This document shows, one piece after another, positions 1,022 to 62,677 of a stretch of DNA of 64,000 nt; position 1 is the stretch's first letter; the number at the start of each line of letters is the position of its first letter. The DNA is from Acholoe squamosa. Its lineage: Eukaryota > Annelida > Polychaeta > Phyllodocida > Polynoidae. The position numbers and the translations under genes were made by a program. Location of the stretch: positions 4,032,501 to 4,096,500 of the forward strand of contig OX439041.1 of the NCBI GenBank assembly GCA_949317995.1. The letters run 5' to 3'. The notes under the pieces are model-generated. The model was given only the letters and a program-made list of their open reading frames with translations, was not told the DNA's origin and made no database searches.

Positions 1022-1135
1022 CCTCACAGTTGTTGCCTGTGTAGCCTGGTGTACAGGTACATGTGTACAAACCCACTTCATCATTGCAGGTTGCACCGTT
1101 CTCACACTGATTTGGACTGCAATCATTGATATCGT
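1022..1135 (-). CDS. EGF exon 26 (Thr form)
   Basis: Thr form, last exon in gene direction inside the window. The gene probably continues to the left. Confidence 0.8.
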
Positions 1136-4100
1136 CTGTAAAAGGGAGATAAACATAAGAGAATCTGCTCCTTATCATTTAACATTCTATAGCCGATAGT
1201 GGAGTAGTGCACCAGACCCGACAATTGTCATGATGCAAAAATGCACCCCTGGTGAGTAACTCACCTGGGCTATATTTGTGCATTATGACCTTCAGTATTG
1301 ATAAATTGTACGAAGGGAGACATGACACTCAAATAGGCAATGACATATGGAGTATATATTCTACTAATGCTGCACCAATTCATTCGCAGGTTTTAAGAAC
1401 AGTAAGTGAGTTTTAAAATCGGGTTGAAGTCAGATAAATGTCAGAGTAAGTTGGCAAGTATGAGATTCACCCTGAATCTAAGGACTTGATTAAGATTTCT
1501 AAACACATAGGGGATGTATTATAACAACAGAAAAACATTTAAATAGTGAATGATTGGCCTAAAATCAATTGAAAAAAAATATAGAAAATGAGGCTTGAGC
1601 TGCTGAAAAGAGTCCTTTGCAGGGGCTGGGTAGTAGCAGAGTGGTTGGGAGTGCCCAATAAATGCTCAAAATCAAAGCCAGGGCCTTATTCTATCATATA
1701 AACCACAGATGTGCATGTATTTGGGTGTAACAGAGAAGCTATGGGACCAGAAATCATTTCATCAAGGGCATTACACGATTCATCATGCGCCTTACATCAG
1801 GCAAGCAACTCTGGTTTTTGGCAACCAAGGCATGTTGAGACTCATTTCTTTTTTTTTAAATTGCACCTCATCAATAGATATATGCCATAGGATGGGTTAG
1901 ATAAGCCAGTAACGATTAATACAGCCTGTACATACACAAGTGCTGTTTAAGAGGGGTGGGTTGACTTCAAAAATACTTGAATGTGTATTGCCCGCAAAGG
2001 GTGAATAGTACTCAAAAAAGAATTTCACCAAAATTCCCCTATACAGACCCCTTGATGGTGATGAGAAGGAAGTCTGAGGATACTATATTTTTAGCTGATC
2101 TAATGCCATAAATGATTCATCATGAGACTGACATCACTATTTTCAACTTAGAAGAATGGTTAGCGCAAGAAAAAAATTGAGACATATCACCTCCACTCCC
2201 CATGGAATTGTTTCTTTGGACCCCCCACTAAGGAATAAATAAAATTATGGTGGTCTCTTACTGCTTTGCTTGATGGTTCACGGGGTGGAATGAGGTTGAA
2301 ATTGAAAGAAAATGCTATTTTGGGCCATTTTTTAACTTTGGGCCATTATATCTCAAAAGATTCTGGTCCGCCATATGCAAATTTGACCTTTCTTTGATTC
2401 CCAGGATTTTTACTTTCAAATAACACCAAAAAGAGGAAGACTGTTTAAATAGTTTTTATTCTGCACGCCCTAACCCAAAAAAGACACTAAAAAGCAGAAA
2501 GTGGGAGCTTTGTCAGGAATCGCCCATATATAGATAACATACCCTCACAGTTGTTGCCCGTGTAGCCTGGTGCACAGGTACATGTGTACAAACCCACTTC
2601 ATCATTGCAGGTTGCACCGTTCTCACACTGATTTGGACTGCAATCATTGATATCGTCTGTAAAAGGGAGATAAACATAAGAGAATCTGCTCCTTATCATT
2701 TAACATTCTATAGCCGATAGTGGAGTAGTGCACCAGACCCGACAATTGTCATGATGCACGAATGCACCCCTGGTGAGTAACTCACCTGGGCTATATTTGT
2801 GCATTATGACCTTCAGTATTGATAAATTGCACGAAGGGAGACATGACACTCAAATAGGCAATGACATATGGAGTATATATTCTACTAATGCTGCACCAAT
2901 TCATTTGCAGGTTTTAAGAACAGTAAGTGAGTTTTAAAATCGGGTTGAAGTCAGATAAATGTCAGAGTAAGTTGGCAAGTATGAGATTCACCCTGACTCT
3001 AAGGACTTGATTAAGATTTCTAAACACATAGGGGATGTATTATAACAACAGAAAAACATTTAAATAGTGAATGATTGGCCTAAAATCAATTGAAAAAAAA
3101 ATAGAAAATGAGGCTTGAGCTGCTGAAAAGAGTGCTTTGCAGGGGCTGGGTAGTAGCAGAGTGGCTGGGAGTGCCCAATAAATGCTTAAAATCAAAGCCA
3201 GGGCCTTATTCTATCATATAAACCACAGATGTGCATGTATTTGTGTGTAACAGAGAAGCTATGGGACCAGAAATCATTTCATCAAGGGCATTACACGATT
3301 CATCATGAGCCTTACATCAGGCAAGCAACTCTGGTTTTGGGCAACCAAGGCATGTTGAGACTCATTTCTTTTTTTTTAAATGGCACCTCATCAATAGATA
3401 TATGCCATAGGATGGGTTAGATAAGCCAGTAACGATTAATACAGCCTGTACATACACAAGTGCTGTTTAAGAGGGGTGGGTTGACTTCAAAAATACTTGA
3501 ATGTGCATTGCCCGCAAAGGGTGAATAGTACTCAAAAAAGAATTTCACCAAAATTCCCCTATACAGACCCCTTGATGGTGATGAGAAGGAAGTCTGAGGA
3601 TACTATATTTTTAGCTGATCTAATGCCATAAATGATTCATCATGAGACTGACATCACTATTTTCAACTTAGAAGAATGGTTAGCATAAGAAAAAAATTGA
3701 GACATATCACCTCCATTCCCCATGGAATTGTTTCTTTGGACCCCCCACTAAGGAATAAATAAAATTATGGTGGTCTCTTACTGCTTTGCTTGATGGTTCA
3801 GGGGGTGGAATGAGGTTGAAATTGAAAGAAAATGCTATTTTGGGCCATTTTTTAACTTTGGGCCATTATATCTCAAAAGATTCTAGTCCGACATATGCAA
3901 ATTTGACCTTTCTTTGATTCCCAGGATTTTTACTTTCAAATAACACCAAAAAGAGGAAGAATGTTTTAATAATTTTTATTCTGCACACCCTAACCCAAAA
4001 AAGACACTAAAAAGTACTAATGCTGCACCAATTCATTTGAAGGTTTTAAGAACAGTAAGTGAGTTTTAAAATCGGGTTGAAGTCAGATAAATTTCAGAGT

Positions 4101-7100
4101 AAGTTGGCAAGTATGAGATTCACCCTGACTCTAAGGACTTGATTAAGATTTCTAAACACATAGGGGATGTATTATAACAACAGAAAAAACATTTAAATAG
4201 TGAATGATTGGCCTAAAATCAATTGAAAAAAAATAGAAAATGAGGCTTGAGCTGCTGAAAAGAGTGCCTTGCAGGGGCTGGGTAGTAGCAGAGTGGCAGG
4301 GAGTGCCCAATAAATGCTTAAAATCAAAGCCAGGGCCTTATTCTATCATATAAACCACAGATGTGCATGTATTTGGGTGTAACAGAGAAGCTATGGGACC
4401 AGAAATCATTTCATCAAGGGCATTACACGATTCATCATGCGCCTTACATCAGGCAAGCAACTCTGGTTTTGGGCAACCAAGGCATGTTGAGACTCATTTC
4501 TTTTTTTTTAAATGGCACCTCATCAATAGATATATGCCATAGGATGGGTTAGATAAGCCAGTAACGATTAATACAGCCTGTACATACACAAGTGCTGTTT
4601 AAGAGGGGTGGGTTGACTTCAAAAATACTTGAATGTGCATTGCCCGCAAAGGGTGAATAGTACTCAAAAAAGAATTTCACCAAAATTCCCCTATACAGAC
4701 CCCTTGATGGTGATGAGAAGGAAGTCTGAGGATACTATATTTTTAGCTGATCTAATGCCATAAATGATTCATCATGAGACTGACATCACTATTTTCAACT
4801 TAGAAGAATGGTTAGCATAAGAAAAAAATTGAGACATATCACCTCCATTCCCCATGGAATTGTTTCTTTGGACCCCCCACTAAGGAATAAATAAAATTAT
4901 GGTGGTCTCTTACTGCTTTGCTTGTTGGTTCAGGGGATGGAATGAGGTTGAAATTGAAAGAAAATGCTATTTTGGGCCATTTTTTAACTTTGGGCCATTA
5001 TATCTCAAAAGATTCTAGTCCGACATATGCAAATTTGACCTTTCTTTGATTCCCAGGATTTTTACTTTCAAATAACACCAAAAAGAGGAAGAATGTTTTA
5101 ATAATTTTTATTCTGCACACCCTAACCCAAAAAAGACACTAAAAAGTACTAATGCTGCACCAATTCATTTGAAGGTTTTAAGAACAGTAAGTGAGTTTTA
5201 AAATCGGGTTGAAGTCAGATAAATTTCAGAGTAAGTTGGCAAGTATGAGATTCACCCTGACTCTAAGGACTTGATTAAGATTTCTAAACACATAGGGGAT
5301 GTATTATAACAACAGAAAAAAAATTTAAATAGTGAATGATTGGCCTAAAATCAATTGAAAAAAAATAGAAAATGAGGCTTGAGCTGCTGAAAAGAGTGCC
5401 TTGCAGGGGCTGGGTAGTAGCAGAGTGGCAGGGAGTGCCCAATAAATGCTTAAAATCAAAGCCAGGGCCTTATTCTATCATATAAACCACAGATGTGCAT
5501 GTATTTGGGTGTAACAGAGAAGCTATGGGACCAGAAATCATTTCATCAAGGGCATTACACGATTCATCATGCGCCTTACATCAGGCAAGCAACTCTGGTT
5601 TTGGGCAACCAAGGCATGTTGAGACTCATTTCTTTTTTTTTAAATGGCACCTCATCAATAGATATATGCCATAGGATGGGTTAGATAAGCCAGTAACGAT
5701 TAATACAGCCTGTACATACACAAGTGCTGTTTAAGAGGGGTGGGTTGACTTCAAAAATACTTGAATGTGCATTGCCCGCAAAGGGTGAATAGTACTCAAA
5801 AAAGAATTTCACCAAAATTCCCCTATACAGACCCCTTGATGGTGATGAGAAGGAAGTCTGAGGATACTATATTTTTAGCTGATCTAATGCCATAAATGAT
5901 TCATCATGAGACTGACATCACTATTTTCAACTTAGAAGAATGGTTAGCATAAGAAAAAAATTGAGACATATCACCTCCATTCCCCATGGAATTGTTTCTT
6001 TGGACCCCCCACTAAGGAATAAATAAAATTATGGTGGTCTCTTACTGCTTTGCTTGTTGGTTCAGGGGATGGAATGAGGTTGAAATTGAAAGAAAATGCT
6101 ATTTTGGGCCATTTTTTAACTTTGGGCCATTATATCTCAAAAGATTCTAGTCCGACATATGCAAATTTGACCTTTCTTTGATTCCCAGGATTTTTACTTT
6201 CAAATAACACCAAAAAGAGGAAGAATGTTTTAATAATTTTTATTCTGCACACCCTAACCCAAAAAAGACACTAAAAAGTACTAATGCTGCACCAATTCAT
6301 TTGAAGGTTTTAAGAACAGTAAGTGAGTTTTAAAATCGGGTTGAAGTCAGATAAATTTCAGAGTAAGTTGGCAAGTATGAGATTCACCCTGACTCTAAGG
6401 ACTTGATTAAGATTTCTAAACACATAGGGGATGTATTATAACAACAGAAAAAAAATTTAAATAGTGAATGATTGGCCTAAAATCAATTGAAAAAAAATAG
6501 AAAATGAGGCTTGAGCTGCTGAAAAGAGTGCCTTGCAGGGGCTGGGTAGTAGCAGAGTGGCAGGGAGTGCCCAATAAATGCTTAAAATCAAAGCCAGGGC
6601 CTTATTCTATCATATAAACCACAGATGTGCATGTATTTGGGTGTAACAGAGAAGCTATGGGACCAGAAATCATTTCATCAAGGGCATTACACGATTCATC
6701 ATGCGCCTTACATCAGGCAAGCAACTCTGGTTTTGGGCAACCAAGGCATGTTGAGACTCATTTCTTTTTTTTTAAATGGCACCTCATCAATAGATATACG
6801 CCATAGGATGGGTTAGATAAGCCAGTAACGATTAATACAGCCTGTACATACACAAGTGCTGTTTAAGAGGGGTGGGTTGACTTCAAAAATACTTGAATGT
6901 GCATTGCCCGCAAAGGGTGAATAGTACTCAAAAAAGAATTTCACCAAAATTCCCCTATACAGACCCCTTGATGGTGATGAGAAGGAAGTCTGAGGATACT
7001 ATATTTTTAGCTGATCTAATGCCATAAATGATTCATCATGAGACTGACATCACTATTTTCAACTTAGAAGAATGGTTAGCATAAGAAAAAAATTGAGACA

Positions 7101-10100
7101 TATCACCTCCATTCCCCATGGAATTGTTTCTTTGGACCCCCACTAAGGAATAAATAAAATTATGGTGGTCTCTTACTGCTTTGCTTGATGGTTCAGGGGG
7201 TGGAATGAGGTTGAAATTGAAAGAAAATGCTATTTTGGGCCATTTTTTAACTTTGGGCCATTATATCTCAAAAGATTCTAGTCCGACATATGCAAATTTG
7301 ACCTTTCTTTGATTCCCAGGATTTTTACTTTCAAATAACACCAAAAAGAGGAAGAATGTTTTAATAATTTTTATTCTGCACACCCTAACCCAAAAAAGAC
7401 ACTAAAAAGTACTAATGCTGCACCAATTCATTTGAAGGTTTTAAGAACAGTAAGTGAGTTTTAAAATCGGGTTGAAGTCAGATAAATTTCAGAGTAAGTT
7501 GGCAAGTATGAGATTCACCCTGACTCTAAGGACTTGATTAAGATTTCTAAACACATAGGGGATGTATTATAACAACAGAAAAAAACATTTAAATAGTGAA
7601 TGATTGGCCTAAAATCAATTGAAAAAAAATAGAAAATGAGGCTTGAGCTGCTGAAAAGAGTGCCTTGCAGGGGCTGGGTAGTAGCAGAGTGGCAGGGAGT
7701 GCCCAATAAATGCTTAAAATCAAAGCCAGGGCCTTATTCTATCATATAAACCACAGATGTGCATGTATTTGGGTGTAACAGAGAAGCTATGGGACCAGAA
7801 ATCATTTCATCAAGGGCATTACACGATTCATCATGCGCCTTACATCAGGCAAGCAACTCTGGTTTTGGGCAACCAAGGCATGTTGAGACTCATTTCTTTT
7901 TTTTTAAATGGCACCTCATCAATAGATATATGCCATAGGATGGGTTAGATAAGCCAGTAACGATTAATACAGCCTGTACATACACAAGTGCTGTTTAAGA
8001 GGGGTGGGTTGACTTCAAAAATACTTGAATGTGCATTGCCCGCAAAGGGTGAATAGTACTCAAAAAAGAATTTCACCAAAATTCCCCTATACAGACCCCT
8101 TGATGGTGATGAGAAGGAAGTCTGAGGATACTATATTTTTAGCTGATCTAATGCCATAAATGATTCATCATGAGACTGACATCACTATTTTCAACTTAGA
8201 AGAATGGTTAGCATAAGAAAAAAATTGAGACATATCACCTCCATTCCCCATGGAATTGTTTCTTTGGACCCCCCACTAAGGAATAAATAAAATTATGGTG
8301 GTCTCTTACTGCTTTGCTTGATGGTTCAGGGGGTGGAATGAGGTTGAAATTGAAAGAAAATGCTATTTTGGGCCATTTTTTAACTTTGGGCCATTATATC
8401 TCAAAAGATTCTAGTCCGACATATGCAAATTTGACCTTTCTTTGATTCCCAGGATTTTTACTTTCAAATAACACCAAAAAGAGGAAGAATGTTTTAATAA
8501 TTTTTATTCTGCACACCCTAACTCAAAAAAGACACTAAAAAGTACTAATGCTGCACCAATTCATTTGAAGGTTTTAAGAACAGTAAGTGAGTTTTAAAAT
8601 CGGGTTGAAGTCAGATAAATTTCAGAGTAAGTTGGCAAGTATGAGATTCACCCTGACTCTAAGGACTTGATTAAGATTTCTAAACACATAGGGGATGTAT
8701 TATAACAACAGAAAAAAACATTTAAATAGTGAATGATTGGCCTAAAATCAATTGAAAAAAAATAGAAAATGAGGCTTGAGCTGCTGAAAAGAGTGCCTTG
8801 CAGGGGCTGGGTAGTAGCAGAGTGGCAGGGAGTGCCCAATAAATGCTTAAAATCAAAGCCAGGGCCTTATTCTATCATATAAACCACAGATGTGCATGTA
8901 TTTGGGTGTAACAGAGAAGCTATGGGACCAGAAATCATTTCATCAAGGGCATTACACGATTCATCATGCGCCTTACATCAGGCAAGCAACTCTGGTTTTG
9001 GGCAACCAAGGCATGTTGAGACTCATTTCTTTTTTTTTAAATGGCACCTCATCAATAGATATATGCCATAGGATGGGTTAGATAAGCCAGTAACGATTAA
9101 TACAGCCTGTACATACACAAGTGCTGTTTAAGAGGGGTGGGTTGACTTCAAAAATACTTGAATGTGCATTGCCCGCAAAGGGTGAATAGTACTCAAAAAA
9201 GAATTTCACCAAAATTCCCCTATACAGACCCCTTGATGGTGATGAGAAGGAAGTCTGAGGATACTATATTTTTAGCTGATCTAATGCCATAAATGATTCA
9301 TCATGAGACTGACATCACTATTTTCAACTTAGAAGAATGGTTAGCGTAAGAAAAAAATTGAGACATATCACCTCCATTCCCCATGGAATTGTTTCTTTGG
9401 ACCCCCCACTAAGGAATAAATAAAATTATGGTGGTCTCTTACTGCTTTGCTTGATGGTTCAGGGGGTGGAATGAGGTTGAAATTGAAAGAAAATGCTATT
9501 TTGGGCCATTTTTTAACTTTGGGCCATTATATCTCAAAAGATTCTGGTCCGACATATGCAAATTTGACCTTTCTTTGATTCCCAGGATTTTTACTTTCAA
9601 ATAACACCAAAAAGAGGAAGAATGTTTAAATAGTTTTTATTCTGCACGCCCTAACCCAAAAAAGACACTAAAAAGCAGAAAGTGGGAGCTTTGTCAGGAT
9701 ATCCATTTAAGGTGGTACCACCCTAAATATGCGCTGCGACCCGAAAAAATCCACTATCGCTGACACTTGACAAAATATTTCAAATACTTAAAATTTCCTC
9801 AGAACTAAGCCAAATATACCAGATTGTAGCTTTTGAAATGGCAAAAATCATACACTAGGTCTGTCATAACAAAGTGCAATCAGATTTTTCGCAAATCGCC
9901 ATGGAAACCACCGATGTGATTTTGTGGTCTGCCACCTGAGTCACTACACATCTATCATAGGTCCCTTTGGTCCACAGTAAATGATCTAAATTATTTTCAT
10001 TCTTTTCCAATCTTTTTTTAAAAATATTCTCCAAGCCTCCAGGATAATTTTAATGCCAATATATACACAGACAACCTGTTTAGAACCCATTTTATAGCCC

Positions 10101-52100: not shown

Positions 52101-55100
52101 AAACATTTAATGTCTCCAGTACAGGAGCATTACAGTAATAGCCAAGAGGAACATGTCTCACCCAATACCTCAAGTCTGTTACATGTGTGTACCCTCAACC
52201 TTTTCAGCTCTGTCAGCCCAGTGACACCCCCTGCTGCAGCCGAGAGGGAGCCTTCGCCAGACTACATCCCCCATCGGTAATTATTTTTTTTTCATTATTT
52301 CCTTTATGTTTGCAATAATAAATCTGACTTCATTCCAGGTGGCAACCAGGGATCAACACAACTACACACTTAAAACTATTATTTTGTCAAGTGATTTGTT
52401 TAATTAACCAATACTTTGTTGTGTTGTGTTCTGTTTCTTAATGAAATTCCTTTTCTTACAGAGTGAGGACGGTCGAGGAGCTCCCGGTGGAGAGGGTGCC
52501 TCTGAGGTACAACCTCAGGGGCCAACTCCACGTCACCTACTACACGGGCAGGGTGCTCGGCCGTGTAGTTAAGAAGGAGCCAGCGAGCAGTGAAGAGGAA
52601 GCCTAATTTTGTTTTTGTTTTTATTTTACTGAAGCCTGGAGCTGCCATTTTTCTTACTGTTAATTTAAAACTAACGAAAGTCTATGTATATATTTATATC
52701 TATCTATCTAAAGGAAAGTGTAATTTAAGTTTCATTCATATAGATCTATGAATATCTATCTATATATATTTAAAAGAGATATATATAAAGTTCTCCTTAA
52801 AAGAGACATCTATTTAATAGAGTATTTAATAGAGATAACTATGTTATAAAATAAAAGTATCTATTTTTCTCACTATGTATATACTTTTGTCTTGTGGTTC
52901 TTTTGAATTAAACACATAGATCCACTCAGTTACTGTGGACATCATCCTCCTGCAGTTAGGGTCTCTCTAGGGTCTGATCCATGATGACTTTACTTACCTT
53001 TTGGACTATCTTTACCTTCTAGGTTGGTTGTCTCGATGCCCTTCCACAAAACACCATTTTCCAAGCTCCCAAAGGCTCGCAAGATGAGGAGGGAGATGGA
53101 TGCAATGGAGCTCGAAATTGCAGAGCTGCGTAAGGCTGTCCGTCTGCAGAAAGGAAGCTCTACCTCAAGCCCCAAGCTCAGCTCCGCTCCCTCCTCAAGC
53201 CCCAAGTCAAGCTCCACATATGCAAACCCCAGCCCAAGAGACCCAAGCCAACTACACTGGGTAGACCCTGTATACCCAGTGCAGCAGGAAGTGATGGAGG
53301 CCCAACAACTGCCTGCTGCCACACCGCAGCCTGCTGCCACTGATGCTCCGCAGCTGGCTGAACCAGCTGCACCACAGCCTGCTGCCACTGATGCTCCGCA
53401 GCTGGCTGAACCAGCTGCACCACAGCCTGCTGCCACTGATGCTCCGCAGCTGGCTGAACCAGCTGCACCACAGCCTGCTGCCACTGATGCTCCGCAGCTG
53501 GCTGAACCAGCTGCACCACAGCCTGTTGCTCCTGCTCCCCCACTTTCCCCAACAACAGAAACCATCCATGTGTTGGCGGCAATGGATGTTACCCCGAACG
53601 CTGACCGCTTGAAAGCTCTCACGAGCTACATCATGGTCAGCCAGCAGGTGCGTAAGACATCCACAAAAATTAAACAAAAGCTGATGCACTCACCTGCCAC
53701 CAAAAAGGTCTACGGGCAGCAAGGCAGGCTGTCAAAAAATGTAGGCCTTTCCCCCGACTATATCTTCCGGGAAAAGGAGAGTTCAAGGAAGAGGCTGGAG
53801 GATGCAGAAAACACCAGGAAACATGTCCTTGAGTTCCTCACACGAGAAGACGTTAGTTACGAGTTGCCCGACAAAAAGCATGCAACTAAGAAGGGGCAGC
53901 AGAAGTATGCCCTCTCAGACACCCTGGTCAACCTCCACATGAGGTACTGTGCAGAATTCAAATCAGACCTGTCATTTGCCACCTTCCGCAGAGCCAGACC
54001 GATATGGTGCAAGCTGAACCACTTCCTTAAGAGGTCTGTCTGTCTCTGCAAACAGCATGCCAACATGGGCCTCATGTTGGAGGTTGTACCAGGGCTTCCT
54101 AACTCAACATCACAGTTACTGGAGTCTTTCACCGATGGGGAAATCATGGAGAAGATCAACAACCTGCCAGGGACACACGTGTCATACAGCACATGGGATA
54201 AGGTCACCAAAAAATACAACGACAAAGATGTCACTTACACCAAGCTGATCAAGGTACTAGACACAAAGGCAGACTTCATGACGAAATTCACAAGTGCACT
54301 GCCCAAATTCCGGGCCCACTGCTCAAGAGTTGCTGCCCAGTTCAGTCAGTGCCAGGCACTCCGCGACAATCTCCCGAATGGTCACTGTATAATCCAGATG
54401 GATTATGCAGAAAACTGGAACTGCTCTTACCTCCGGGAGATTGCCGCGGCTTATTATTCGAAAGACCAAGTTACCCTTCACCCTATGGTGGTGAAGGTAA
54501 AGGCAGCCAATGGAGACCTGGAAACCATCACATTTGTCGGTGTGACTTCTGTCACAAACCACACGTTTCCGACCACCTGGGTCTTCATTGGCCAGCTGGT
54601 GGAAATCCTGAAGAAGTCACATGGTATTAATTTTGTCCATTTTGTCACTGACTCGCCCAGCAGTCAGTACCGCAACCGGTACACCATTCAAATGGTGGCC
54701 CGGTTTCAAGGTATCTTCAGCCTCGGAGCTGCCTGGAACTGGCTCTAGTCGGGCCATGGGAAGGGTGCATGCGACGGGGTCGGAGGTACCCTGAAGCGGC
54801 TGGCTGATCGGCTTGTGAAGTCCAGCTCCATCATCCAGAATGCTGAGGACTTCACTGAGGTGGTGGGTCCAGCCACCAAAGTGAAGATCCTGTACGCTTC
54901 GGCAGATGATATCAAGGCAGCCGAGCAGGAGGTGGCTGATTGGAAGAGCCCTGCCCTTCATGGCATTCTCTCTGTCCACCAGGCAGCATGCCACAACAGC
55001 AAGATAATGGTGAGGGAGACGAGCTGCTACCAACCGTGCTGCTTGTCGGAGGACGGCTTCCACCCCTCATGTGCTAAATGGAGGCAGACGCGAGTAGCAC

Positions 55101-58100
55101 AGGTTGGTGAGGTGGTTGAGGAGGTCCAGGATGAGTGGGAGGAGTGGGACTCTGGTTATGACACCACCGCAGAGGATGACCGCCCTCTCATCATCCTGCA
55201 GCAGGAGCTGCGTGATGAGGATGATAACATCCCCCTCGCTCAACTGCTCCATGATGAAGAGGACAACGAGGATGACATCCCTCTCGCCCAGCTGCCTGCC
55301 AGTGAGGATGAGGATGACATCCCTCTCGCCCAGCTGCCGGACACAGAAGATGAGGATGACGTCCCCATCACCCAGCTGCAGCCCATCCGGCGTTCGACCC
55401 GGCGTCAGACTCGTCGCACTTGTCGTCATTGAGCATTGCTTATATAAGGATGATACTGTGGGCATTGTCCTCCATTGGGTCATTTAGGTGGGCATAACCC
55501 TCCATGATAATGTTAGGAAAATGAATTAAGTAATTGGCATGATTATAATGAAACATAAATGAATGAAGTAATTGCAATGATTATATAAATAATGTACCAT
55601 GGGTGGACTGGGAGATAGGGGGGTAGATGTATTAAGTCATAGATGGATTAAATCATGATGGGTGGGCAAGGGGGGTAGGGTATGTAATTGTATGCAATGT
55701 TGGGGGAAAGGGTAGTCAATAAACATGTTCTTTCCAGTTCTGTTAAAAAGTGTTTCTGTTATATATACCAGACTAGACCCGAGAGAGACCCTACATCCAG
55801 AAGGTTGATAGCCATAGTAACGGACTAGACCCGAGAGAGACCCTGTTTCCCATGCCCAGAGCAATAATTATATGCTGCAGACACCAGTGTTTTGTTTTAC
55901 TGTGAAGATAATGAATGTACCAAGCACCAAAAGTCCAAAACAACCACAAAGGTTTTGTAAAAATATGATTTTTTTGCAAATTTATGTGCCCGCATGCTAT
56001 ATTTTTAGCAAAACGGACCAGAAAAGAATATCTTTCCAAAGTAAAATCATGTTAAAAGGAGACTAATAAGAGAGTAAAAGGTTTAATGAACCTATGGGAG
56101 CATTCAATTATTGTTATTAAGCACTTCCCTAAAGATAAAAGACATGGGAAAGAAAGAATGATATATAAAGGGTTTTCACCCCTGTTTTAGGCTACGGACT
56201 AGACCCGAGAGAGACCCTACTTAACTGCTGTAGCAGAACAAGGATAAGTCAAAGGCTAACATCCTTATAGGTGGTTGTAGACAAGCTCCTTAGCTACCAT
56301 ATGAAGTAGAAATAAGAGGGATAACCCATGTATTATGCAGTTTTACAATGTTTGGCAAAAGGCATGGTGAGTTGTGTAGGTGATCCCCTCGGACCGCAAT
56401 ATTTTAATTTTACTATAATTATACCAAAAATTCATAGAATGTCCATCTAAATTCATTCCTAACATGCTCCAACATCTGTGTTTTACATATAAAAAAGAAT
56501 AATAAAGGAAAGATTCATACAAAACATGCTAAATATGCATATACTGTACAGGGGTAGGGTCTCTCTCGGGTCTAGTGCGTAATTGAGGTAGTCCACTTCA
56601 GCCCTGTGCCCTGGATTTAAAAACGATATTTAACTTACCCACATATATGGACCCTAAGCCCCAACACATGTACTATGTGTACCCTAAAACTTTTTAGGCT
56701 GCTCCAGAATATTTTTGGGACCCCCCTGGTAGCCCAGTTAACGACGATTCGTGATTATTGGTCATTGATAAATTGCACAAAGGGAGACATGACACTCAAA
56801 TAGGCAATGACATATGGAGTATATATTCTACTTATGCTGCACCAATTCATTTGCAGGTTTTAAGAACAGTAAGTGAGTTTTAAAATCGGGTTGAAGTCAG
56901 ATAAATGTCAGAGTAAGTTGGCAAGTATGAGATTCACCCTGACTCTAAGGACTTGATTAAGATTTCTAAACACATAGGGGATGTATTATAACAACAGAAA
57001 AACATTTAAATAGTGAATGATTGGCCTAAAATCAATTGAAAAAAAATAGAAAATGAGGCTTGAGCTGCTGAAAAGAGTGCTTTGCAGGGGCTGGGTAGTA
57101 GCAGATTGGCTGGGAGTGCCCAATAAATGCTTAAAATCAAAGCCAGGGCCTTATTCTATCATATAAACCACAGATGTGCATGTATTTGGGTGTAACAGAG
57201 AAGCTATGGGACCAGAAATCATTCCATCAAGGGCATTACACGATTCATCATGCACCTTACATCAGGCAAGCAACTCTGGTTTTGGGCAACCAAGGCATGT
57301 TGAGACTCATTTCTTTTTTTTTAAATGGCACCTCATCAATAGATATATGCCATAGGATGGGTTAGATAAGCCAGTAACGATTAATACAGCCTGTACATAC
57401 ACAAGTGCTATTTAAGAGGGGTGGGTTGACTTCAAAAATACTTGAATGTGTATTGCCCGCAAAGGGTGAATAGTACTCAAAAGAGAAATTCACCAAAATT
57501 CCCTATACAGACCCCTTGATGGTGATGAGAAGGAAGTCTGAGGATACTATATTTTTAGCTGATCTAATGCCATAAATGATTCTCATGAGACTGACATCAC
57601 TATTTTCAACTTAGAAGAATGGTTAGCGTAAAAAAGAAATTGAGACATATCACCTCCATTCCCCATGGAATTGTTTCTTTGGACCCCCCACTAAGGAATA
57701 AATAAAATTATGGTGGTCTCTTACTGCTTTGCTTGATGGTTCAGGGGGTGGAATGAGGTTGAAATTGAAAGAAAATGCTATTTTGGGCCATTTTTTAACT
57801 TTGGGCCATTATATCTCAAAAGATTCTGGTCCGACATATGCAAATTTGACCTTTCTTTGATTCCCAGGATTTTTACTTTCAAATAACACCAAAAAGAGGA
57901 AGAATGTTTAAATAGTTTTTATTCTGCATGCCCTAACCCAAAAAAGACACTAAAAAGCAGAAAGTGGGAGCTTTGTCAGGAATCGCCCATATATAGATAA
58001 CATACCCTCACAGTTGTTGCCCGTGTAGCCTGGTGCACAGGTACATGTGTACAAACCCACTTCATCATTGCAGGTTGCACCGTTCTCACACTGATTTGGA

Positions 58101-61100
58101 CTGCAATCATTGATATCATCTGTAAAAGGGAGATAAACATAAGAGAATCTGCTCCTTATCATTTAACATTCTATAGCCGATAGTGGAGTAGTGCACCAGA
58201 CCCGACAATTGTCATGATGCACAAATGCACCCCTGGTGAGTAACTCACCTGGGCTATATTTGTGCATTATGACCTTCAGTATTGATAAATTGCACGAAGG
58301 GAGACATGACACTCAAATAGGCAATGACATATGGAGTATATATTCTACTTATGCTGCACCAATTCATTTGCAGGTTTTAAGAACAGTAAGTGAGTTTTAA
58401 AATCGGGTTGAAGTCAGATAAATGTCAGAGTAAGTTGGCAAGTATGAGATTCACCCTGACTCTAAGGACTTGATTAAGATTTCTAAACACATAGGGGATG
58501 TATTATAACAACAGAAAAACATTTAAATAGTGAATGATTGGCCTAAAATCAATTGAAAAAAAAATAGAAAATGAGGCTTGAGCTGCTGAAAAGAGTGCTT
58601 TGCAGGGGCTGGGTAGTAGCAGAGTGGCTGGGAGTGCCCAATAAATGCTTAAAATCAAAGCCAGGGCCTTATTCTATCATATAAACCACAGATGTGCATG
58701 TATTTGGGTGTAACAGAGAAGCTATGGGACCAGAAATCATTTCATCAAGGGCATTACACGATTCATCATGCGCCTTACATCAGGCAAGCAACTCTGGTTT
58801 TGGGCAACCAAGGCATGTTGAGACTCATTTCTTTTTTTTTAAATGGCACCTCATCAATAGATATATGCCATAGGATGGGTTAGATAAGCCAGTAACGATT
58901 AATACAGCCTGTACATACACAAGTGCTGTTTAAGAGGGGTGGGTTGACTTCAAAAATACTTGAATGTGTATTGCCCGCTCAGGGTGAATAGTACTCAAAA
59001 AAGAATTTCACCAAAATTCCCCTATACAGACCCCTTGATGGTGATGAGAAGGAAGTCTGAGGATACTATATTTTTAGCTGATCTAATGCCATAAATGATT
59101 CATCATGAGACTGACATCACTATTTTCAACCTAGAAGAATGGTAAGCGCAAGAAAAAAATTGAGACATATCACCTCCATTCCCCATGGAATTGTTTCTTT
59201 GGACCCCCCACTAAGGAATAAATAAAATTATGGTGGTCTCTTACTGCTTTGCTTGATGGTTCAGGGGGTGGAATGAGGTTGAAATTGAAAGAAAATGCTA
59301 TTTTGGGCCATTTTTTAACTTTGGGCCATTATATCTCAAAAGATTCTGGTCCGACATATTCAAATTTGACCTTTCTTTGATTCCCAGGATTTTTACTTTC
59401 AAATAACACCAAAAAGAGGAAGAATGTTTAAATAGTTTTTATTCTGCACGCCCTAACCCAAAAAAGACACTAAAAAGCAGAAAGTGGGAGCTTTGTCAGG
59501 AATCGCCCATATATAGATAACATACCCTCACAGTTGTTGCCCGTGTAGCCTGGTGCACAGGTACATGTGTACAAACCCACTTCATCATTGCAGGTTGCAC
59601 CGTTCTCACACTGATTTGGACTGCAATCATTGATATCCTCTGTAAAAGGGAGATAAACATAAGAGAATCTGCTCCTTATCATTTAACATTCTATAGCCGA
59701 TAGTGGAGTAGTGCACCAGACCCGACTATTGTCATGATGCACGAATGCACCCCTGGTGAGTAACTCACCTGGGCTATATTTGTGCATTATGACCTTCAGT
59801 ATTGATAAATTGCACGAAGGGAGACATGACACTCAAATAGGCGATGACATATGGAGTATATATTCTACTAATGCTGCACCAATTCATTTGCAGGTTTTAA
59901 GAACAGTAAGTGAGTTTTAAAATCGGGTTGAAGTCAGATAAATGTCAGAGTAAGTTGGCAAGTATGAGATTCACCCTGACTCTAAGGACTTGATTAAGAT
60001 TTCTAAACACATAGGGGATGTATTATAACAACAGAAAAACATTTAAATAGTGAATGATTGGCCTAAAATCAATTGAAAAAAAATAGAAAATGAGGCTTGA
60101 GCTGCTGAAAAGAGTGCTTTGCAGGGGCTGGGTAGTAGCAGATTGGCTGGGAGTGCCCAATAAATGCTTAAAATCAAAGCCAGGGCCTTATTCTATCATA
60201 TAAACCACAGATGTGCATGTATTTGGGTGTAACAGAGAAGCTATGGGACCAGAAATCATTCCATCAAGGGCATTACACGATTCATCATGCACCTTACATC
60301 AGGCAAGCAACTCTGGTTTTGGGCAACCAAGGCATGTTGAGACTCATTTCTTTTTTTTTAAATGGCACCTCATCAATAGATATATGCCATAGGATGGGTT
60401 AGATAAGCCAGTAACGATTAATACAGCCTGTACATACACAAGTGCTGTTTAAGAGGGGTGGGTTGACTTCAAAAATACTTGAATGTGTAGTGCCCGCAAA
60501 GGGTGAATAGTACTCAAAAGAGAATTTCACCAAAATTCCCCTATACAGACCCCTTGATGGTGATGAGAAGGAAGTCTGAGGATACTATATTTTTAGCTGA
60601 TCTAATGCCATAAATGATTCTCATGAGACTGACATCACTATTTTCAACTTAGAAGAATGGTTAGCGTAAAAAAGAAATTGAGACATATCACCTCCATTCC
60701 CCATGGAATTGTTTCTTTGGACCCCCCACTAAGGAATAAATAAAATTATGGTGGTCTCTTACTGCTTTGCTTGATGGTTCAGGGGGTGGAATGAGGTTGA
60801 AATTGAAAGAAAATGCTATTTTGGGCCATTTTTTAACTTTGGGCCATTATATCTCAAAAGATTCTGGTCCGACATATGCAAATTTGACCTTTCTTTGATT
60901 CCCAGGATTTTTACTTTCAAATAACACCAAAAAGAGGAAGAATGTTTAAATAGTTTTTATTCTGCACGCCCTAACCCAAAAAAGACACTAAAAAGCAGAA
61001 AGTGGGAGCTTTGTCAGGAATCGCCCATATATAGATAACATACCCTCACAGTTGTTGCCCGTGTAGCCTGGTGCACAGGTACATGTGTACAAACCCACTT

Positions 61101-62677
61101 CATCATTGCAGGTTGCACCGTTCTCACACTGATTTGGACTGCAATCATTGATATCGTCTGTAAAAGGGAGATAAACATAAGAGAATCTGCTCCTTATCAT
61201 TTAACATTCTATAGCCGATAGTGGAGTAGTGCACCAGACCCGACAATTGTCATGATGCACAAATGCACCCCTGGTGAGTAACTCACCTGGGCTATATTTG
61301 TGCATTATGACCTTCAGTATTGATAAATTGCACGAAGGGAGACATGACACTCAAATAGGCAATGACATATGGAGTATATATTCTACTTATGCTGCACCAA
61401 TTCATTTGCAGGTTTTAAGAACAGTAAGTGAGTTTTAAAATCGGGTTGAAGTCAGATAAATGTCAGAGTAAGTTGGCAAGTATGAGATTCACCCTGACTC
61501 TAAGGACTTGATTAAGATTTCTAAACACATAGGGGATGTATTATAACAACAGAAAAACATTTAAATAGTGAATGATTGGCCTAAAATCAATTGAAAAAAA
61601 AATAGAAAATGAGGCTTGAGCTGCTGAAAAGAGTGCTTTGCAGGGGCTGGGTAGTAGCAGAGTGGCTGGGAGTGCCCAATAAATGCTTAAAATCAAAGCC
61701 AGGGCCTTATTCTATCATATAAACCACAGATGTGCATGTATTTGGGTGTAACAGAGAAGCTATGGGACCAGAAATCATTTCATCAAGGGCATTACACGAT
61801 TCATCATGCGCCTTACATCAGGCAAGCAACTCTGGTTTTGGGCAACCAAGGCATGTTGAGACTCATTTCTTTTTTTTTAAATGGCACCTCATCAATAGAT
61901 ATATGCCATAGGATGGGTTAGATAAGCCAGTAACGATTAATACAGCCTGTACATACACAAGTGCTGTTTAAGAGGGGTGGGTTGACTTCAAAAATACTTG
62001 AATGTGTATTGCCCGCAAAGGGTGAATAGTACTCAAAAAAGAATTTCACCAAAATTCCCCTATACAGACCCCTTGATGGTGATGAGAAGGAAGTCTGAGG
62101 ATACTATATTTTTAGCTGATCTAATGCCATAAATGATTCATCATGAGACTGACATCACTATTTTCAACTTAGAAGAATGGTAAGCGCAAGAAAAAAATTG
62201 AGACATATCACCTCCATTCCCCATGGAATTGTTTCTTTGGACCCCCCACTAAGGAATAAATAAAATTATGGTGGTCTCTTACTGCTTTGCTTGATGGTTC
62301 AGGGGGTGGAATGAGGTTGAAATTGAAAGAAAATGCTATTTTGGGCCATTTTTTAACTTTGGGCCATTATATCTCAAAAGATTCTGGTCCGACATATGCA
62401 AATTTGACCTTTCTTTGATTCCCAGGATTTTTACTTTCAAATAACACCAAAAAGAGGAAGAATGTTTAAATAGTTTTTATTATGCACGCCCCAACCCAAA
62501 AAAGACACTAAAAAGCAGAAAGTTGGAGCTTTGTCAGGAATCGCCCATATATAGATAACATACCCTCACAGTTGTTGCCTGTGTAGCCTGGTGTACAGGT
62601 ACATGTGTACAAACCCACTTCATCATTGCAGGTTGCACCGTTCTCACACTGATTTGGACTGCAATCATTGATATCGT
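1022..62677 (-). CDS. Large EGF-repeat protein gene, internal part, 26 exons
   Basis: Twenty-six minus-strand exons of 114 bases each encode one EGF-like domain per exon. Every exon starts after TTTTACAG and ends at G|GTATGT, so each is phase 1-1 and adds exactly 38 residues in frame. The domain core runs from DINDC to NNCE, with six cysteines spaced 4, 5, 8, 1 and 8. It fits the calcium-binding EGF pattern: DINDC before the first cysteine, then C-N-D-x4-Y-T-C, in which the Asp is the usual hydroxylation site. C-ENGA-T-C fits the O-fucose consensus and C-APG-Y-T-G-NN-C the O-GlcNAc (EOGT) consensus; CSPNQC does not fit the O-glucose site. Such arrays occur in Notch, fibropellins and other extracellular or membrane proteins. 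No signal peptide, membrane segment or other domain lies in the window, so the protein cannot be named. Coordinates span the first to last exon seen; both ends of the gene lie outside. Confidence 0.8.
1240..1284. other. Conserved intronic hairpin, one per complete unit
   Basis: The perfect palindrome GGTGAGTAACTCACC (1251-1265) is bracketed by CCC/GGG and by AATGCAC/GTGCATT, giving a possible 45-nt stem-loop. It lies about 105 bases upstream of the EGF acceptor in gene direction and recurs at the same place in every complete unit; this is the first copy. On the minus strand it contains CAG|GTGAGT, a consensus splice donor. It is absent from the five exon-less units. Confidence 0.5.
2543..2656 (-). 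CDS. EGF exon 25 (Ala form)
   Basis: Consensus exon, the first after the exon-less block in gene direction. Private intron changes include CACGGGGTGG and CCGCCATATG. Confidence 0.8.
3042..8701. repeat. Block of five exon-less 1,132-base units
   Basis: Five consecutive units lack the same 388 bases, equivalent to 974-1361 of the first unit. That removes the EGF exon, its splice sites and the intron hairpin. Deletion junctions (AAAAG|TACTAATGC) are at 4014/4015, 5146/5147, 6278/6279, 7409/7410 and 8542/8543. All five share further variants (GTTTTAATAATTT, CTGCACACCC, TTTGAAGG), so one deleted unit was amplified, not five separate deletions. For the EGF gene the block is only intron. Confidence 0.9.
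9711..10181. mobile_element. Miniature inverted-repeat element, copy 1 (471 bases)
   Basis: Bounded on both sides by TTAA (9707-9710 and 10182-10185), with 18-bp terminal inverted repeats GGTGGTACCACCCTAAAT. The outer 12 bases of each end are themselves a perfect palindrome. There is no coding potential. A TTAA target duplication is typical of piggyBac and Kolobok type elements; which of these mobilised it cannot be told from the ends alone. Confidence 0.75.
10186..10997. other. 812 bases between two miniature elements
   Basis: AT-rich sequence foreign to the array. At 10402-10421 it has an exact 20-base inverse match to 9873-9892 of the flanking miniature element (GCGAAAAATCTGATTGCACT), and it has looser CCATGG-centred similarities. 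It may be an older, decayed relative in the opposite orientation. An 88-codon open frame at 10311-10577 shows no recognisable domain. Confidence 0.4.
11002..11468. mobile_element. Miniature inverted-repeat element, copy 2 (3' end clipped)
   Basis: Same orientation as copy 1 and nearly identical; I see one clear substitution, GTCCGCAGT against GTCCACAGT. It starts after TTAA at 10998-11001 but lacks its last few bases and the right TTAA. It joins the array directly at GGTGGTAC|ATACCC, next to an EGF exon, with AC shared at the junction. Confidence 0.7.
11473..11586 (-). CDS. EGF exon 24 (Ala form, donor fused to a miniature element)
   Basis: The exon and its acceptor are normal. Downstream, the usual intron start is replaced straight after GTATGT by the end of a TTAA-type miniature element (GTATGTACCACCC). 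The six donor bases survive, so splicing is plausible, but the next intron would be about 8.8 kb, because five exon-less units follow before the exon at 2543. Confidence 0.75.
12994..13107 (-). CDS. EGF exon 23 (Ala form)
   Basis: Consensus exon. The unit is the partner of the one at 16530 in a three-unit, about 4.56 kb block duplication. Confidence 0.8.
14512..14625 (-). CDS. EGF exon 22 (Ala form)
   Basis: Consensus exon. Small private differences in the unit: CAGGGGTGG shortened by one G, and CCAAAAGAGG shortened by one A. Confidence 0.8.
16031..16144 (-). CDS. EGF exon 21 (Ala form)
   Basis: Consensus exon. The unit has private changes TGATGATAAGG and AAGAGAAAGAATG. Confidence 0.8.
17551..17664 (-). 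CDS. EGF exon 20 (Ala form)
   Basis: Consensus exon. Its unit shares GCAGGGTGGC, TACATGATTCATCACG, GCTGATAGTGG and CCTACAGTATTG with the unit at 11972, three units away. Confidence 0.8.
19071..19184 (-). CDS. EGF exon 19 (Ala form)
   Basis: Coding sequence and splice sites match the consensus. An intron change at about 19226 (TTATCGTTTA instead of TTATCATTTA) removes an upstream ATG, so a simple ORF scan misses this exon; it is intact. Confidence 0.8.
20590..20703 (-). CDS. EGF exon 18 (Ala form)
   Basis: Consensus exon, sister to exon 17 by shared intron variants. Confidence 0.8.
22109..22222 (-). CDS. EGF exon 17 (Ala form)
   Basis: Consensus exon. Shares AGAACCGACTATTG in the upstream intron with the unit at 20590, marking them as sister copies. 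Confidence 0.8.
23628..23741 (-). CDS. EGF exon 16 (Ala form)
   Basis: Consensus exon. Belongs to a run of units (about 19570-25609) sharing GGATCTATTAT, TTTATTGCCC and, in three of them, GGGGGCTTTG. Confidence 0.8.
25110..25223 (-). CDS. EGF exon 15 (Ala form, 36-base intron loss)
   Basis: Consensus exon. About 23 bases into its downstream intron, 36 bases present in other complete units (GACACTAAAA through TCAGGA) are missing. The GTATGT donor is unaffected. Confidence 0.8.
26628..26741 (-). CDS. EGF exon 14 (Ala form)
   Basis: Consensus exon. Private intron changes are GTGAGAGCT downstream and GAATATGCTCC upstream. Confidence 0.8.
28148..28261 (-). CDS. EGF exon 13 (Thr form)
   Basis: Thr form. 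An intron change upstream of the acceptor (AAACACAAGAG instead of AAACATAAGAG) is outside the splice-site core. Confidence 0.8.
29668..29781 (-). CDS. EGF exon 12 (Thr form, Asp to Asn)
   Basis: Reads NINDC instead of DINDC through a GAT to AAT change. This residue is normally a calcium ligand. Asn is allowed in the calcium-binding pattern, so binding may be weakened rather than lost. Also carries the Thr form of the C-terminal half. Confidence 0.8.
31188..31301 (-). CDS. EGF exon 11 (Ala form)
   Basis: Coding sequence identical to exon 10. The intron has a private GCTAATTTGG where other units have GCTATTTTGG. Confidence 0.8.
32708..32821 (-). CDS. EGF exon 10 (Ala form)
   Basis: Consensus exon. 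The unit (31687-33206) and the one at 30167 share CTTGAAAGTG, a 10-base T tract and loss of three bases (ATTCTCATGAG), marking a two-unit duplication. Confidence 0.8.
34231..34344 (-). CDS. EGF exon 9 (Thr form)
   Basis: Thr form with a coding sequence identical to exon 8. The unit has an 11-base T tract near 33535, against 9 in most units. Confidence 0.8.
35753..35866 (-). CDS. EGF exon 8 (Thr form)
   Basis: Thr form with linked silent ACA. Its unit and the next (34231) share intron variants TTCTCCTATAC and TGCTTTTCTTG, so they look like a recent neighbour duplication. Confidence 0.8.
37272..37385 (-). CDS. EGF exon 7 (Ala form)
   Basis: Consensus exon. Private changes (GATAATGG, CATGAAGGG) lie only in the flanking intron. 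Confidence 0.8.
38789..38902 (-). CDS. EGF exon 6 (Ala form, silent GAT)
   Basis: Third exon with the silent G|AT split codon. In gene direction, transposon copy 1 lies in the intron upstream of it, starting 165 bases from the acceptor edge of the exon. Confidence 0.8.
39064..39067. other. Target-site duplication ATTG, left of copy 1
   Basis: Unoccupied units read CAGTATTGATAAATT. Here CAGTATTG is followed by the element and ATTGATAAATT resumes after it, so ATTG is duplicated. Confidence 0.8.
39068..39097 (+). repeat. Left terminal inverted repeat, copy 1
   Basis: Begins GACTGATAATCACG and pairs with 47126-47155; mismatches are at positions 4 and 5 only. Confidence 0.85.
39452..39840 (+). 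promoter_or_regulatory. Left cluster of AGACCC two-half-site motifs, copy 1
   Basis: AGACCCGAGAGAGACCCT at 39452-39469 and 39642-39659, then a variant (GAACCGAGAGAGACCCT, from 39806) directly followed by one at 39823-39840. Each is a direct repeat of AGACCC with starts 11 bases apart. All face the same way and lie upstream of the inferred leader exon of gene A. A binding role is inferred. Confidence 0.5.
40136..40390 (-). promoter_or_regulatory. Second cluster of the 18-bp motif, opposite orientation, copy 1
   Basis: GGGTCTCTCTCGGTTCT starts at 40136, 40160 and 40310, and GGGTCTCTCTCGGGTCT at 40374. These sit in the inferred leader intron of gene A and point opposite to the cluster at 39452-39840. 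Confidence 0.45.
40452..42998 (+). pseudogene. Transposon gene A, copy 1 (six coding exons, frameshifted)
   Basis: Exons at 40452-40574, 40733-40838, 40979-41315, 41533-41653, 42600-42668 and 42854-42998, all with GT-AG introns. The reading frame carries across every junction in copy 2. Here exon 4 has eight Cs near 41578 instead of seven, which shifts the frame. The intact protein starts MPYKDRSSAAAK. It has a Lys/Arg-rich region (KRPYRDLTEEGKEEKRRSKR), an Ala/Pro then Thr/Ser-rich stretch with KRRSRRAKGG, and a C-terminus with RYNLRGQLHVTYYTGR and an acidic tail. I recognise no family. Its basic character fits a nucleic-acid-binding accessory factor of the element, which is inference. A poly(A) signal lies at 43242-43247. 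Confidence 0.6.
42362..42480. repeat. 52-base tandem repeat carrying the motif, copy 1
   Basis: Two full 52-base units start at 42362 and 42414, followed by a decayed third. Each holds AGGGTCTCTCTAGGGTCT (or AAGG) plus GTTACTATGGACATCATCC. Related single pieces occur at 41388 and 43350. The repeat lies in the intron before gene A exon 5. Confidence 0.6.
42999..43427 (+). other. Copy 1: gene A 3' region and gene B leader
   Basis: AT-rich, with TATCTATCTATC-like runs, an AATAAA at 43242-43247, one AGGGTCTCTCTAGGGTCT at 43350-43367 and an acceptor-like TTTACCTTCTAG ending at 43414. The in-frame stop at 43377-43379 limits how far gene B could extend upstream without splicing. Confidence 0.5.
43428..45824 (+). 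pseudogene. Transposon gene B, copy 1: DDE-like transposase broken by TAG
   Basis: A single open frame from ATG 43428 to TGA 45822-45824, interrupted only by TAG at 45138-45140 (codon 571). Order of parts: a short basic/helical N-terminus (about residues 10-40); a four-copy 16-residue PQPAATDAPQLAEPAA repeat; a Cys-containing segment (RPIWCKL, SVCLCKQHANM); a core with MDYAEN (Asp456) and TDSPSSQYRN (Asp539); and, just after the stop, SGHGKGACDGVGGTLKR. The tail is acidic with four IPLAQL-like repeats and ends Arg-rich. These motifs resemble a widespread group of uncharacterised metazoan transposase-like proteins, in which as I recall a Glu precedes (A/S)GHGKG. The TAG would then replace the third catalytic acid. 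The start context (TCGATGC) is weak, so an upstream exon is possible. Confidence 0.65.
43719..43910 (+). repeat. 48-base coding minisatellite, four copies (transposon copy 1)
   Basis: Four perfect 48-base units inside gene B encode PQPAATDAPQLAEPAA; a partial fifth follows. The repeat also creates long false open frames on both strands. Confidence 0.9.
45825..47125 (+). other. Copy 1: 3' region of gene B and right non-coding part
   Basis: Likely 3' untranslated region with AATAAA at 46110-46115 followed by a T/GT-rich stretch, so polyadenylation near 46135-46160 is plausible. Beyond it is AT-rich sequence with four 18-bp motifs and no coding exon I can support. Confidence 0.5.
46167..46965. 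promoter_or_regulatory. Right cluster of the 18-bp motif, copy 1
   Basis: Perfect AGACCCGAGAGAGACCCT at 46167-46184, 46219-46236 and 46593-46610, and the reverse orientation at 46948-46965, about 190 bases inside the right end. With the left cluster this gives subterminal motif groups at both ends, as seen for transposase-binding sites in some DNA transposons; the role here is inferred. Confidence 0.5.
47126..47155 (-). repeat. Right terminal inverted repeat, copy 1
   Basis: Read on the minus strand it begins GACCAATAATCACG, matching the left end in 28 of 30 positions. Confidence 0.85.
48398..48511 (-). CDS. EGF exon 5 (Ala form, between the two transposon copies)
   Basis: Same silent G|AT split codon as exons 4 and 6. 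The exon lies between the two 8.09 kb transposon copies, so the introns on both sides are about 9.5 kb long; the splice sites themselves are unchanged. Confidence 0.8.
48673..48676. other. Target-site duplication ATTG, left of copy 2
   Basis: Same duplicated ATTG at the same unit position as copy 1; its partner is at 56764-56767. Confidence 0.8.
48677..48706 (+). repeat. Left terminal inverted repeat, copy 2
   Basis: Same sequence as the left end of copy 1, directly after the ATTG duplication. Confidence 0.85.
48707..50060 (+). other. Copy 2: 5' non-coding region of gene A
   Basis: Equivalent to 39098-40451: leader donor ending at 49562, acceptor directly before ATG 50061, motif clusters at 49061-49449 and 49745-49999. 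Confidence 0.45.
50061..52606 (+). CDS. Transposon gene A, copy 2 (six coding exons, intact)
   Basis: Exons at 50061-50183, 50342-50447, 50588-50924, 51142-51261, 52208-52276 and 52462-52606. They total 900 bases, giving 299 residues plus stop. Phases run 0, 1, 2, 2, 2, and every intron is GT-AG with a pyrimidine-rich acceptor. That this chain of exons stays open, and that only the seven-C form does, is the main support for the model. A second acceptor before GATACCTGAG (exon start about 51488) would give an alternative short ending (IPESTPVSHFNL, then stop). Roughly, residues 1-76 are basic, 77-190 low-complexity, and 230-299 a more ordinary C-terminal domain. No known domain, no signal peptide and no membrane segment. 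Confidence 0.6.
52607..53035 (+). other. Copy 2: gene A 3' region and gene B leader
   Basis: Equivalent to 42999-43427, with the poly(A) signal at 52850-52855 and one motif at 52958-52975. Confidence 0.45.
53036..55432 (+). pseudogene. Transposon gene B, copy 2: DDE-like transposase broken by TAG
   Basis: Same layout as copy 1, with the TAG at 54746-54748 and the final stop at 55430-55432. The only amino-acid difference I found is SKNVG against SKSVG, about residue 234. Sharing the identical nonsense codon shows that it predates the duplication of the two copies. The frame after the stop stays open for 227 codons to the same end in both copies, so the damage is a single base change, possibly recent or tolerated by readthrough. 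Confidence 0.65.
53327..53518 (+). repeat. 48-base coding minisatellite, four copies (transposon copy 2)
   Basis: Same four units and number as copy 1. The equal copy number in such an unstable repeat argues that the two elements separated recently. Confidence 0.9.
55433..56733 (+). other. Copy 2: 3' region of gene B and right non-coding part
   Basis: Equivalent to 45825-47125, with AATAAA at 55718-55723 and motifs from 55775 to 56573. Confidence 0.5.
56734..56763 (-). repeat. Right terminal inverted repeat, copy 2
   Basis: Same sequence as the right end of copy 1, directly before the second ATTG. Confidence 0.85.
58006..58119 (-). CDS. EGF exon 4 (Ala form, silent GAT)
   Basis: The split codon is G|AT (Asp), a silent change shared only with the exons at 48398 and 38789. 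It marks the three-unit block that includes both transposon-bearing units. This unit has no transposon at the corresponding ATTG site near 58285. Confidence 0.8.
59526..59639 (-). CDS. EGF exon 3 (Ala form, split codon Glu)
   Basis: The acceptor is followed by AG instead of AC, so the split codon reads G|AG (Glu) instead of G|AC (Asp). This lies just before DINDC and is one of only three amino-acid-changing variants seen in the 26 exons. The TTTTACAG acceptor is intact. Confidence 0.8.
61044..61157 (-). CDS. EGF exon 2 (Ala form)
   Basis: Consensus exon with Ala in CTCAPGYTG. The surrounding unit shares ATTCCATCAAGG and GCAGATTGGC with the transposon-bearing units at 37771 and 47380, marking it as a relative of that block. 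Confidence 0.8.
62564..62677 (-). CDS. EGF exon 1 (Thr form)
   Basis: First exon of the window in gene direction. It has ACA (Thr) instead of GCA (Ala) in the CTCxPGYTG stretch, together with the linked silent ACA for the Thr of GYTG. Its downstream intron carries a few private changes (TTATTATGC, CCCCAACCC, AGTTGGAGC). Confidence 0.8.

Follow-up and report, generated by a model that had tools for sequence, protein, structure and literature searches.

A 320-kb tandem array of near-identical EGF exons in Acholoe squamosa, probably part of a single membrane-anchored protein gene

The window analyzed here, the whole 64,000-nucleotide stretch C7:4032501-4096500 of the Acholoe squamosa genome (1.48 Gb in 63 contigs, 18 of them large, 53.9 to 127.1 Mb; C7 is contig OX439041.1 of assembly GCA_949317995.1), carries 26 copies of a 114-base exon for a single EGF module, EGF-A. 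All 26 were recovered on the minus strand at ≥97.5% identity to the first exon, with the first copy at 1022-1135 and the last at 62564-62677. The features of the window are listed below in window coordinates; every EGF-A exon was established by exon search and peptide reading.

1022..1135, minus: EGF-A exon, Thr variant
2543..2656, minus: EGF-A exon
4015..8542, minus: four repeats of 1.13 kb, set off by five junctions of an identical deletion (unit position 973 joined to 1362), each junction lacking the exon
9704..11471, strand not assigned: insert of 1.77 kb within a unit, its ends formed by 471-bp direct repeats
11473..11586, minus: EGF-A exon
12994..13107, minus: EGF-A exon
14512..14625, minus: EGF-A exon
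16031..16144, minus: EGF-A exon
17551..17664, minus: EGF-A exon
19071..19184, minus: EGF-A exon
20590..20703, minus: EGF-A exon
22109..22222, minus: EGF-A exon
23628..23741, minus: EGF-A exon
25110..25223, minus: EGF-A exon
26628..26741, minus: EGF-A exon
28148..28261, minus: EGF-A exon, Thr variant; unit comparisons use its unit as reference
29668..29781, minus: EGF-A exon, Thr and Asn variants
31188..31301, minus: EGF-A exon
32708..32821, minus: EGF-A exon
34231..34344, minus: EGF-A exon, Thr variant
35753..35866, minus: EGF-A exon, Thr variant
37272..37385, minus: EGF-A exon
38789..38902, minus: EGF-A exon
39068..47155, plus: DNA transposon copy 1, inside an intron (with terminal inverted repeats and, by eye, an ATT target duplication)
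48398..48511, minus: EGF-A exon
48677..56763, plus: DNA transposon copy 2, at the same unit position as copy 1 (99.93% identical over 8088 bp)
58006..58119, minus: EGF-A exon
59526..59639, minus: EGF-A exon, Glu variant
61044..61157, minus: EGF-A exon
62564..62677, minus: EGF-A exon, Thr variant

The first codon of each EGF-A exon takes one base from the preceding exon, and all 26 exons have AG/GT borders and an open frame, confirming a preliminary description of this DNA as a run of 26 minus-strand, phase 1-1 EGF exons. The description had also counted only three amino-acid variants, and the peptides agree: 19 match the consensus, 5 carry Ala to Thr, 1 combines Ala to Thr with Asp to Asn, and 1 carries Asp to Glu. 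With a length of 114 bases and phase 1-1 borders, the exon supports the further proposal that each unit adds a whole domain without disturbing the frame. The units are indeed in tandem, but their 1.5-kb spacing is not uniform, being interrupted by 388-base deletions, the insert at 9704-11471 and the duplicated transposon. The array does not appear in the output of Tandem Repeats Finder, because the longest period there was 500. The EGF-A module has six cysteines in EGF spacing and, read by eye, DIND before Cys1 and C-N-D-x4-Y-x-C between Cys3 and Cys4; judged by these residues, it conforms to the consensus motif for calcium binding and beta-hydroxylation of EGF domains.

The window, which had been taken for the entire array, is only a slice of it. 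In the array sequence that was read (C7:3880001-4196000 and C7:4241801-4251800, with the window in the middle), BLAST gave 117 EGF-A matches: 114 of full length, one of 118/121 bases at C7:3968916, which is an intact exon, and two 28-base remnants to which exons have been reduced; several array units have no exon. The resulting 115 exons extend from C7:3922039 to 4242123, a span of about 320 kb, and AG/GT splice borders are present in all of them. The frame is open in 112, and the other 3 (C7:3925911, 3930763, and 3934092) have one premature stop in common, from a shared Tyr-to-stop change; an exact search of the genome found no fourth exact copy of the stop exon. An intron marker occurs at 81 places, 11 of which, between C7:4200482 and 4240802, lie outside the read sequence; if these 11 units retain the exon, 126 exons in total is a fair lower estimate. 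The exon-core pattern (≤3 mismatches) has 134 matches genome-wide on the array strand, at least one of them on contig C10, and 13 on the other strand, placing the upper bound by this pattern at about 133 exons.

In the flanking sequence, reading frames were split at stops, and two exons, an EGF exon upstream and a transmembrane exon, were picked out by eye. The upstream border of the array is an EGF exon of diverged sequence (EINECENVMC...; C7:4243738-4243848), judged by eye to be phase 1-1. Downstream lie nine exons of a second type, EGF-B, from C7:3920072 down to 3897188, each of 114 bases and all open; about 330 bases on from two of these nine copies there is a 78% match to the third EGF type of a paralog. 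The exon that follows EGF-B codes for a hydrophobic helix, TLVFGLTGAVVIVILVFACILFVFLVNRR; its acceptor is phase 1, matching the EGF exons, and its donor reads CAG/GTATGT. If this donor is not used, the frame continues for 28 residues to a stop (C7:3896602-3896685), and such read-through is a possible short-tail form. An LTR element occupies about C7:3881450-3893794, and exons for the N-terminus and the tail were not found in C7:3880001-4196000 and 4241801-4251800. A typed model consisting of U1, two A, one B, and the transmembrane exon matched Pfam families PF00008 (E 5.3e-33) and PF07645 (E 1.6e-13), that is, EGF domains of the calcium-binding Notch type. The protein originally envisaged was extracellular; the product looks membrane-anchored rather than simply extracellular. 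A hint at deuterostome relatives is probably wrong, since the mitochondrial code is not that of echinoderms: in COX1 on the mitochondrial contig (C63; 15,641 bases), AAA stands for Lys, ATA for Met, AGA for Ser, and TGA for Trp at conserved positions. This COX1 lies between what we take to be nad2 and cox2 and presumably resembles annelid COX1; the animal was read as a lophotrochozoan, probably an annelid. Species with 18 chromosomes occur among the scale worms of the Polynoidae (PMC11371463, PMC10541532, PMC10288160).

The transmembrane exon matches eight places in the genome, the array locus and seven others. At four paralogous loci with few EGF copies (C12:56.325 Mb, C12:56.489 Mb, C7:9.046 Mb, and C10:73.89 Mb), the order A or A-prime, B, transmembrane is kept, and parts of three of the four were read as DNA. 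The C10 paralog has an A exon, the same 1.4-kb intron and then A-prime and B, as well as at least 4 EGF matches about 1526 bases apart; that at C7:9.046 Mb has A-prime and B in the part read, and one partly read paralog ends with A-prime, B, two further EGF exons, and the transmembrane exon. Relatives of the upstream exon lie at C7:3.286, 3.546, and 3.802 Mb and at C10:73.934 Mb. Among the located family loci, long amplification of the A unit is seen at the array locus alone.

Variation among the repeats was measured over 87 full-length units in the contiguous read part of the array (C7:3922039-4185953). Units differ pairwise by 1.35% on average and 3.2% at most, with 4 of the 3741 pairs identical, and units farther apart differ more: the figure is 0.99% for pairs within 2 kb of each other and 1.55% for those over 100 kb apart. 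By comparison, 55 of 1394 sites (3.9%) separate the array consensus intron from its counterpart in the C10 paralog, which indicates homogenization within the array. Together with duplicated multi-unit blocks, these values bear out the recent amplification and homogenization inferred in the preliminary description.

The array contains several such blocks and inserted elements. Between the exons at 2543 and 11473, a 388-base deletion that removes the exon is repeated five times (junctions at about 4014, 5146, 6278, 7409, and 8542 of the window). The 8.1-kb DNA transposon at 39068-47155 and 48677-56763, with terminal inverted repeats of 25 matching bases and an ATT target duplication, contains two open reading frames of 586 and 227 aa (stop-to-stop reading); its single Pfam match is a weak, low-complexity one under the cut-off, and the element may be an undescribed family. 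Because the second copy is 99.93% identical to the first and lies at the same unit position, it would have been duplicated together with its unit and not re-inserted. Similarly, an LTR retrotransposon occurs, about 99% alike, at the same intron position in three units (C7:4143243, 4171541, and 4187085), its copies having probably spread by segmental duplication of units and not by new insertions. A 3.3-kb dimer bearing the stop exon is likewise repeated and holds two of the three stop exons. We read these duplicated landmark blocks as likely marks of unequal crossing-over and gene conversion. The insert at 9704-11471 has near-identical counterparts at C7:3974977-3978036, where it is in tandem, and C7:3985389-3987156. 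These three inserts are 99.8-99.9% alike, whereas array units differ by 1.35% on average, and by its look the insert is a very recent short LTR-type element.

Copy number in arrays is often mis-assembled, and the array might on that account be an artifact of assembly. This is very unlikely here, given that so few unit pairs are identical among the 87 full units and that distinct transposon landmarks occur along the array. Moreover, loci L001-L035 contain no N bases, and exact direct repeats in the 316-kb stretch reach 3441 bases at most, so that long reads could resolve the array.

Contrary to what had been claimed, exons and introns are not equally uniform: across the 87 full-length units, variable sites number 312 of 1406 in the intron and 12 of 114 in the EGF-A exon (Fisher p 0.0027). 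Equal-size intron windows (1293 overlapping windows over the 1406 sites) have 25.4 variable sites on average, and none of the 1293 has 12 or fewer. When only sites varying in at least 2 units are considered, 10% of the intron windows have values no higher than the exon's; for pi (0.0078 in the exon, 0.0140 in the intron) the proportion is 19%. None of 35 distinct gap runs falls inside the exon, where 2.8 were expected. Within the array, 8 of 13 exon variants are non-synonymous, against an expected fraction of 0.77, which is not significant (p 0.17). Between loci, the A exon has no differences from its C10 copy at 98 sites, against the intron divergence of 55/1394 given above (p 0.046); paralogs G9 and G6 differ at 3 of 227 exon and 19 of 424 intron sites (p 0.039), and the exon-intron comparison between G9 and G5 is not significant (p 0.42). 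The ratio of non-synonymous to synonymous changes in EGF-B ranges from 0 to 0.52 in six comparisons between loci; A and A-prime in the paralogs display the reverse, with non-synonymous to synonymous counts of 5:0 and 7:1. The exon thus has about half as many variable sites as intron windows, which is consistent with a working gene; because the exon-intron, pi, and non-synonymous results are mixed, we regard constraint on the exon as likely rather than proven.

The three stop exons (3/115) count against a coding reading. They lead to an alternative, namely that the array is decaying, the exon having been amplified as DNA in a gene that is broken or splices round the array, with the likeness of the exons a residue of recent duplication. 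Two of the three stop exons lying in the repeated dimer, the same exon deletion occurring five times consecutively and transposable elements within several introns would all suit such decay. We nevertheless consider it unlikely, as 112 of 115 exons are open, every splice border is intact, the exon has fewer variable sites than any equal-size intron window, and gap runs are absent from it. The position of the stops allows another reading: they lie near the 3' end of the array, upstream of the EGF-B and transmembrane exons, with 107 of the 115 exons preceding the first of them, and might be used, giving a secreted protein with about a hundred EGF domains in a row and, by skipping alone, a membrane form. 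This possibility, which overlaps with the interpretation that we prefer, is rather unlikely, since the paralogs retain exon B and the transmembrane exon and a stop codon far upstream of later introns normally triggers mRNA decay.

The interpretation that we prefer, and regard as probable from the sequence features described above, is that the array is a protein-coding, exon-scale tandem repeat on the minus strand, within a gene belonging to a small family of single-pass membrane EGF proteins. Unequal crossing-over and gene conversion would have amplified the 114-base phase 1-1 exon, together with its 1.4-kb intron, to 115 copies at the least and probably to 126 or more; the neighboring EGF-B exon would have been amplified separately to nine. 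Joined in the mRNA, these exons would encode a rod of calcium-binding EGF domains with roughly 5,000 residues, far longer than the almost 1,000 residues first proposed, anchored by the transmembrane helix; alleles would differ in length by whole domains. For the transmembrane exon to be reached, the three stop exons would have to be skipped, which would be frame-neutral, and without skipping the haplotype read here would yield a truncated, secreted form. Many tandem copies of one exon are also what mutually exclusive splicing of the Dscam kind would use, but the copies are almost identical, so that choosing among them yields no diversity, and 114-base phase 1-1 exons can all be joined. We find such splicing improbable in the extreme, and likeness to a Dscam-like exclusive cluster was rejected, the exons not being diversified, with 87 of 115 giving one identical peptide.

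Searches with the upstream and B exons, which give positions only and counts that are lower bounds, revealed regular runs of like EGF matches in at least 5 other places in the genome. They comprise at least 47 matches at C7:17.959-17.993 Mb, mostly about 582 bases or a multiple apart; at least 28 at C1:3.000-3.073 Mb, many 1.70 kb apart; at least 11 at C15:3.544-3.555 Mb, about 865 bases or a multiple apart; at least 24 and at least 23, of two types, at C11:26.028-26.056 Mb, 1150 bases or a multiple apart; and at least 6 at C4:54.937-54.947 Mb, about 1480 bases or a multiple apart. Each run would belong to one gene. At C11:26.008-26.145 Mb, ten DSL matches flank both sides of the 1150-base array, in which the two types alternate, and this region may hold clustered Delta-like genes, or fragments of them, along with an EGF array of its own. 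We tentatively suggest, as a possibility short of even likelihood, that the array gene encodes an EGF filament of about 5,000 residues, tethered to the membrane and of allele-specific length, and that this genome has repeatedly made homogenized EGF-exon arrays as a general route in the lineage to length-variable surface proteins. By the usual EGF spacing, such a filament would be roughly a third of a micrometer long.

The module is a Notch-type calcium-binding EGF, and among solved structures a query of two modules is best matched by its relatives Delta-like 1 and Notch1. Phase 1-1 exons are typical of the EGF repeats of Notch and Delta/Jagged, which are mutually diverged and fixed in number. 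Identity as a Delta/Jagged ligand was rejected, since a profile search of the genome found no DSL domain near the array gene or the located family members; at E up to 1 there are 24 DSL matches genome-wide, with those on C7 and C10 at 62.8 Mb and 66.3 Mb only and none on C12. Silk repeats are also kept alike by recombination and are low-complexity protein repeats. Homogenization of silk genes is mentioned in the title of a paper on spider silk (PMC9779670). In the array, unlike in silk, the repeat is a folded, disulfide-bonded EGF domain on its own exon. Among the titles and abstract openings of the papers searched, no EGF exon array of like kind was found.

The best-known coding repeat with a whole exon set as its unit is, to our knowledge, LPA kringle IV type 2, the unit of which is frame-neutral. 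As in the array, a whole-exon unit with large introns is repeated in tandem in one coding gene, with many copies per allele according to a published account; it describes a 5.6-kb unit for a kringle domain, with two exons (160 and 182 bases) in 1 to more than 40 copies, and nonsense variants also occur within that repeat (PMC6314250). The array differs in its 1.5-kb unit with a single EGF exon, in its at least 115 copies and in being probably membrane-anchored, with one haplotype read here. Like the LPA repeat, it has a whole-exon unit of symmetric phase, and its copies resemble one another more closely than they do those at other loci. Unusually large for an exon-scale repeat, the array would work like the LPA kringle IV type 2 repeat and appears coding by every sign; transcription and copy-number variation would make it a full member of that kind. 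New relative to LPA are the single domain on a single exon, the several-fold more copies, and the separate amplification of two neighboring exons. Annotation from short reads would be likely to overlook or fragment a gene of this kind. The locus offers a system for asking how splicing handles more than a hundred near-identical exons, how frame-neutral arrays tolerate stop exons, and whether protein length is selected. Like human LPA, though with more copies, this gene can probably gain or lose protein domains whole.
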